Origin: Thermaerobacter subterraneus DSM 13965
GTDB taxonomy: Bacteria > Bacillota > Sulfobacillia > Thermaerobacterales > Thermaerobacteraceae
Direction: 5' to 3'
Length of the DNA stretch: 64,000 nucleotides
Assembly (NCBI RefSeq): GCF_000183545.2
Contig: NZ_JH976535.1
Location: 324,840-388,839, forward strand
The translations under genes and the position numbers were made by a program. This document shows, piece by piece, positions 1,448 through 2,307 of the stretch (the first letter of the stretch is position 1; each line of letters begins with the position of its first letter). The notes beneath the pieces are model-generated. The model saw only the letters and a list, made by a program, of their open reading frames with translations, had not been told where the DNA came from and did no database searches.

Positions 1448-1470
1448 CGGCGTGAGGAGGCGATGGGCCC

Positions 1471-2307
1471 GTGGCGATCCTCGCCGAGTCCCAGAGGCGG
1501 GCGGTGGCCGAGCGGCTGGCGGCGGTCGACGCTCCCGTGGAGCTTGAACTGTTCGTCCGCGATACCCGCCTGATCATCCCCGGCCGGGAGTGCCCGCGCT
1601 GCGAGGAGACGGTGCAGCTGCTGAAAGAGGTCTGTGCCCTCAGCCCCCGGCTGGCGCTTGTCGTGCGCGACCTCGACCGGGAGAGCGAGCGGGCTCGCCA
1701 CCTGGGCGTGGAGCGCACCCCCACCCTGGTGATCCACGGGCGGGCCGGCGGCCGCATCCGCTTCGTGGGGCCGCCCATGGGCTACGAGTTCGCCACCCTG
1801 CTGGAGGCGCTGGTGGAAGCAGGCCGCGGGGACGGCCATGGGGCGGCGCTCGGCGGCCCGGGCGGCGAGGACCGGGGCGGCACGGGCACCGAGGGCCGGG
1901 GCGAGCCGGGCGGCGAGGCCGCGGCTTCGGGCGGAGCCGCGGAGACCCAGGGCCCGGCGGAGGGCGGCCCCGGGGCGGGTTCCTCCGCGGCGGACGGGGT
2001 GCTGGACGCCCACCGCCTCGCCCTCCTGGAACAGGCTGAGGAAACGGTCCACCTGCGGGTGTTCTTCACCCCCACCTGACCCCATTGCCCGCGGGCCGTG
2101 CGCTCCGCCATGCAACTGGCCCTGGCCAGCCCCCGGGTGATCGCCGAGGCGGTGGAGGCCAGCTCGTTCCCGCAGCTGGCGCGCCAGTACCAGGTCTGGG
2201 CCGTACCCAAGACGGTGGTCAACGACCGGGTGGCCCTGGACGGGGCCGTGGGTGACGAGATGCTGTGGTCGGCGATTGCCCAGGCTCTGGGAATCCCGCC
2301 GGCCTGA
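1471..2307 (+). CDS. Two-domain thioredoxin-fold protein disulfide oxidoreductase with in-frame UGA (candidate selenoprotein)
   Basis: This resembles protein disulfide oxidoreductases (PDO, glutaredoxin-like), made of two tandem thioredoxin folds. Domain 1 has C41-P-R-C44 and a Thr-Pro cis-proline site (RTPTLVI). Domain 2 should open with a CxxC after LRVFFTPT; the codon at 2077-2079 is TGA, followed in the same frame by CCC CAT TGC, giving U203-P-H-C206. The frame stays open through the second cis-proline site (AVPKTVV) to TGA at 2305-2307, giving about 278 residues. The domains are joined by an unusually long Gly/Glu-rich linker (about residues 120-185). GTG 1471 is preceded by GAGGAGG at 1454-1460. 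TGA at a redox Cys position suggests selenocysteine; a TGC-to-TGA nonsense mutation is the alternative. SelA/B/C/D are not in this window. Confidence 0.72.
2093..2122 (+). promoter_or_regulatory. Candidate bacterial SECIS-like hairpin downstream of the UGA
   Basis: GGGCC at 2093-2097 pairs with GGCCC at 2118-2122, extended by a G-U pair (2098/2117) and TGC/GCA (2099-2101/2112-2114), leaving a 10-base apical loop. It begins 13 bases after the UGA at 2077-2079, about where bacterial SECIS elements lie. Hairpins are common in DNA this GC-rich, so this is suggestive only. Confidence 0.3.

Follow-up and report, generated by a model that had tools for sequence, protein, structure and literature searches.

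An in-frame UGA in a gene of Thermaerobacter subterraneus DSM 13965 looks like a stop codon but, judging from comparison with its relatives, is almost certainly read as selenocysteine (Sec). The gene lies in the window (i.e., the whole 64,000-nucleotide stretch of DNA analyzed here) and can with high confidence be assigned to a cytosolic-type protein disulfide oxidoreductase (PDO) with two thioredoxin folds, whose UGA would be decoded as Sec by tRNA-Sec and SelB at a downstream hairpin (Table 1). This is a secure selenoprotein prediction for a gene that the table-11 gene call cuts in two.

Table 1. Features of the Sec-PDO gene (window coordinates) and its paralogues in the genome (locus coordinates, with genome coordinates in brackets)
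Feature	Coordinates	Strand	Description and basis
Probable ribosome-binding site GAGGAG	1454..1459	+	11 nt before GTG; inferred from direct reading
Sec-PDO gene	1471..2307	+	Starts at GTG; 278 codons, with UGA 2077-2079 read as Sec, then UGA 2305-2307 as terminator
Thioredoxin-fold domain 1 (residues 1-120)	1471..1830	+	AlphaFold2 model, pLDDT mostly >90
CPRC site of domain 1 (residues 41-44)	1591..1602	+	Translation and alignment
Gly/Ala-rich interdomain linker (~residues 121-176)	1831..1998	+	Predicted disordered, pLDDT ~43-58; composition and length; variable in genus
Thioredoxin-fold domain 2 (residues 177-278)	1999..2304	+	AlphaFold2 model, structure matches
UGA codon for Sec203, residue 1 of UPHC site	2077..2079	+	Alignment, codon counts
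bSECIS-like hairpin GCGGGC-CGUGC-GC(U)CCGC	2091..2108	+	6 bp, one bulged U, 5-nt loop, G at loop place 2, 17 nt from UGA to loop; rules from PMC13188914
Sec-PDO paralogue	L050:2244-3014 (G000:C1:1043243-1044013)
Sec-PDO paralogue	L051:1929-2588 (G000:C1:2365428-2366087)

Frame and context of the gene

If the internal TGA encodes an amino acid, translation yields a full-length product of 278 residues with Sec at position 203 and a calculated mass of ~29.1 kDa, lower than the 31 kDa given in the original prediction. Past the TGA the GC content at codon positions 1, 2 and 3 is 0.76, 0.52 and 0.91 respectively, the pattern typical of coding sequence in this genome. The split into two false genes that was expected of standard gene callers does appear under translation table 11 (1471-2079 and 2098-2307), with the second ORF starting at 2098 instead of at about 2110. 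The active sites are CPRC in domain 1 (41-44) and UPHC in domain 2 (203-206), and on alignment the TGA coincides exactly with the leading Cys of CPxC in the Cys homologues, confirming the earlier reading that domain 1 keeps its CPRC and that in the second CxxC the TGA replaces the first Cys. Calling this the first Cys of the "resolving" pair was a misnomer: in a CxxC it is normally the first Cys that attacks.

The gene is flanked by a SpoIIP gene on one side and lepA on the other, and the order SpoIIP - PDO - LepA is shared by the other three genomes from the genus and by one from the same family. A promoter and terminator scan returned no match, an Rfam search of 1900-2400 gave nothing but microRNA hits scoring far under the gathering threshold, which were put down to chance, and a plasmid search found only weak partial relatives.

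Protein family, fold and linker

The whole protein scored 190 bits against NCBIfam TIGR02187 (named PDO_seleno_TRX, protein disulfide oxidoreductase, by NCBI in version TIGR02187.2), which is only just over the curated cut-off of 185 (margin 5 bits); in a direct genome scan, where each of its domains was scored apart, neither passed. The AlphaFold2 model (mean pLDDT 84.5) comprises two thioredoxin folds, at ~1-120 and at 177-278, with a disordered linker between them; each fold has an active site (CPRC and UPHC), as in a PDO. Among solved structures, Foldseek ranked the PDOs 2ywm (Aquifex) and 1a8l (Pyrococcus) best, followed by AhpF N-terminal domains; together with the family score, this upheld the PDO assignment of the original prediction. 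The PDOs of Pyrococcus furiosus (1a8l) and Aquifex aeolicus (2ywm and 2ayt) share the two thioredoxin folds (E ~1e-18, TM by target 0.83-0.86), but carry Cys in the C-terminal site and lack the long linker. The AhpF N-terminal domain likewise has tandem thioredoxin folds with an active CxxC in the second, but AhpF carries a fused C-terminal flavin/NADH reductase module, whereas the 278-residue protein contains thioredoxin domains only.

In 2006 the Sec form was listed, from Symbiobacterium thermophilum and Carboxydothermus hydrogenoformans, as a "homolog of AhpF, amino-terminal domain" (PMC1794560), and reviews link that selenoprotein family (Grx-like domain protein) to TIGR02187 with UxxC (PMC13188914). 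The window protein resembles this listed family in its HMM family, UxxC and tandem thioredoxin folds, and differs in the spacing between the GYEF motif and Sec, which is 99 residues (91-99 across the genus and 63-65 for the nearest paralogue group) versus ~45 in nearly all other relatives. A literature search on selenoproteins in Thermaerobacter found nothing relevant. The Sec-PDO of TIGR02187 is an already known family, and what is less expected is the long linker together with three Sec copies in a genome where no Cys copy was found.

A mixed pair of sites, one with Cys and one with Sec, had been thought unusual, but by our counts is common in the PDO family: among collected members, domain 1 has CxxC in 35 of 73 Sec forms (about half) and in 36 of 49 Cys forms. 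The linker part of the same claim stood, as the long disordered linker is specific to the genus and unusual in the family. Its sequence is variable even inside the genus; linker length may count more than its letters, or the linker may not matter at all. Many Sec-PDOs (L017, L024, L027 and similar loci) keep UxxC in domain 2 but have no CxxC in domain 1.

The domain layout bears on a further reading, in which the UGA, on top of Sec decoding, serves as a regulated switch, with the 202-residue domain 1 product playing a role of its own when selenium is lacking. According to the model, termination would free a complete thioredoxin fold with CPRC; however, the short form would still carry domain 2's first strand as well as a disordered tail, and the sequence bears no sign of selection for it. 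We consider such a switch very unlikely.

Conservation of the TGA codon among relatives

The codon in the Sec203 column was TGA at 41, TGC at 25 and TGT at 14 of 80 loci, and nothing else (these were the best 80 loci from named genomes, searched with only the post-TGA part as query to avoid bias). Homologues were present in 31 of the 61 relatives covered by genome search. TGA copies of the family were seen in Bacillota, Chloroflexota and Acidobacteriota, and the PDO selenoprotein family is broader than early lists suggest. On a rough tree of 115 rows, 21 switches between Sec and Cys were counted; in the sequences of this family, Sec and Cys swap places repeatedly. Within the genus, an orthologue with a single TGA, located in domain 2, was found in all four members; past the TGA, dN/dS was 0.09-0.14 and the first ten codons had zero amino acid changes. 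By these measures the sequence past the TGA is under purifying selection.

Could the TGA be a true stop, created by a nonsense mutation or sequencing error which left a domain 1 pseudogene and a separate ORF after it? The split frame under table 11 fits such a history; however, TGA occupies the same codon throughout the genus, as well as in two paralogues and in members of other phyla, purifying selection goes on past it, and the PHCPR motif, which lies ahead of the first possible restart, is conserved. Since only TGA, TGC and TGT occur in the column and dN/dS past the TGA is low, neither nonsense mutation nor sequencing error can explain the TGA; we give the pseudogene reading almost no credence and reject it, as TGA conservation rules it out. 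The codon counts bear out the argument that a chance nonsense mutation at precisely this codon is unlikely, and the Cys homologues do have Cys at position 203, where the original prediction had proposed to look for it. Against the sequencing error it had allowed for, three further species of the genus, independently assembled, also have the TGA.

Divergent homologues with UxxC, an in-frame TGA and a short or missing N-terminal match were also found in genomes of the same class (L060, L064 and L065).

Selenocysteine machinery

Searching the genome for selA, selB, selD and tRNA-Sec, as had been proposed, recovered all four: SelA (577 bits), SelB (313 bits), SelD (401 bits) and tRNA-Sec (82.8 bits, anticodon UCA), i.e., the full set expected of a bacterium with selenoproteins. 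A lack of Sec machinery, which would have refuted the original prediction, is thereby excluded. Moreover, SelA was over the cut-off in 23 of 23 relatives with TGA in the PDO gene versus 21 of 38 others (Fisher p = 7e-5 over 61 relatives, relatedness not corrected for). One TGA genome (G004), assembled in 580 pieces, gave no strong tRNA-Sec match.

Read-through in which a suppressor or near-cognate tRNA inserts an ordinary amino acid (Cys or Trp) at the UGA would agree with the Cys that fills this column in half of the relatives, but was rejected as wholly improbable because the 46 ordinary tRNAs found (gathered with a general tRNA model, anticodons read with ARAGORN) all bear anticodons other than UCA, that of tRNA-Trp being CCA, and because the full Sec system is present and tracks TGA among relatives.

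SelD itself (L066; G000:C1:1627908-1628843) has an in-frame TGA and is probably also a selenoprotein. The tRNA-Sec gene adjoins a Bcp-type thioredoxin-dependent peroxidase (L040:1736-2197) and, on its other side, a site-specific integrase-like ORF.

The bSECIS-like hairpin

Bacterial SECIS elements are described by a loop of 3-9 nt, a stem of 4-16 bp, a G in the first two loop places and 16-37 nt from UGA to loop (PMC13188914). The check for such an element past 2079 was positive in geometry, as the hairpin at 2091..2108 satisfies all of these rules with a loop starting 17 nt past the UGA, and in conservation, as a hairpin (most often CCGGGC-GGUNC-GCCUGG) occurs at the same place in relatives: over 27 distinct Sec sequences, 81% of cells paired in register, versus 27-59% on sliding the register and 55% among Cys homologues. 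Its shape is thus conserved across aligned Sec relatives. The single-sequence folding test was uninformative, as the energy showed no excess over shuffled versions of this GC-rich sequence (z -0.19), and the stem needs a bulge; covariation was modest, and a register shift of -1 scored similarly. The hairpin evidence is therefore supporting and not decisive, and the copy in the window alone is no proof of a SECIS element.

Paralogues and a proposed redox role

Two further Sec-PDO paralogues are present in the genome (Table 1), each with UGA at residue 1 of its C-terminal site; the window copy has the lowest TIGR02187 score of the three. A Cys PDO copy was not found in the genome, so that all three PDO copies found are Sec forms, which makes the genome useful for asking what selenium buys in thiol-disulfide exchange.

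With Sec inserted, as we infer, Sec203 would make the attack in the C-terminal UPHC site and Cys206 would resolve it, and the N-terminal CPRC would form a second thiol-disulfide site; Sec would confer faster exchange and resistance to overoxidation. Electrons would most likely flow from NADPH via thioredoxin reductase to the Sec-PDO, and from there to protein disulfides and peroxiredoxins. In Sulfolobus, Bcp peroxiredoxins receive electrons from PDO, which itself obtains them from NADPH via thioredoxin reductase; thiol transfer by this PDO relies mainly on the C-terminal site (PMC7465337). Because the Sec of the window protein is placed in that same site, and because genes for thioredoxin reductase and a thioredoxin-dependent peroxidase are present in the host genome, an NADPH-to-peroxiredoxin relay through the Sec-PDO is plausible by analogy, with the partners guessed from characterized archaeal PDOs. 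A more speculative idea, which we think rather unlikely, is a two-body redox relay in the genus, where the CPRC domain and the UPHC domain, uncoupled by the linker, would dock separately on partners or on one another, and the three Sec-PDOs would do all of the cell's PDO work.

A CoA-disulfide-reductase-like FAD enzyme (L051:355-1734) and a DUF302 protein precede the third Sec-PDO, and nearby ORFs in L052, named by eye, resemble an ArsR regulator, a rhodanese and a rhodanese/metallo-beta-lactamase (persulfide dioxygenase-like) protein. This neighborhood suggests a link to persulfide metabolism.
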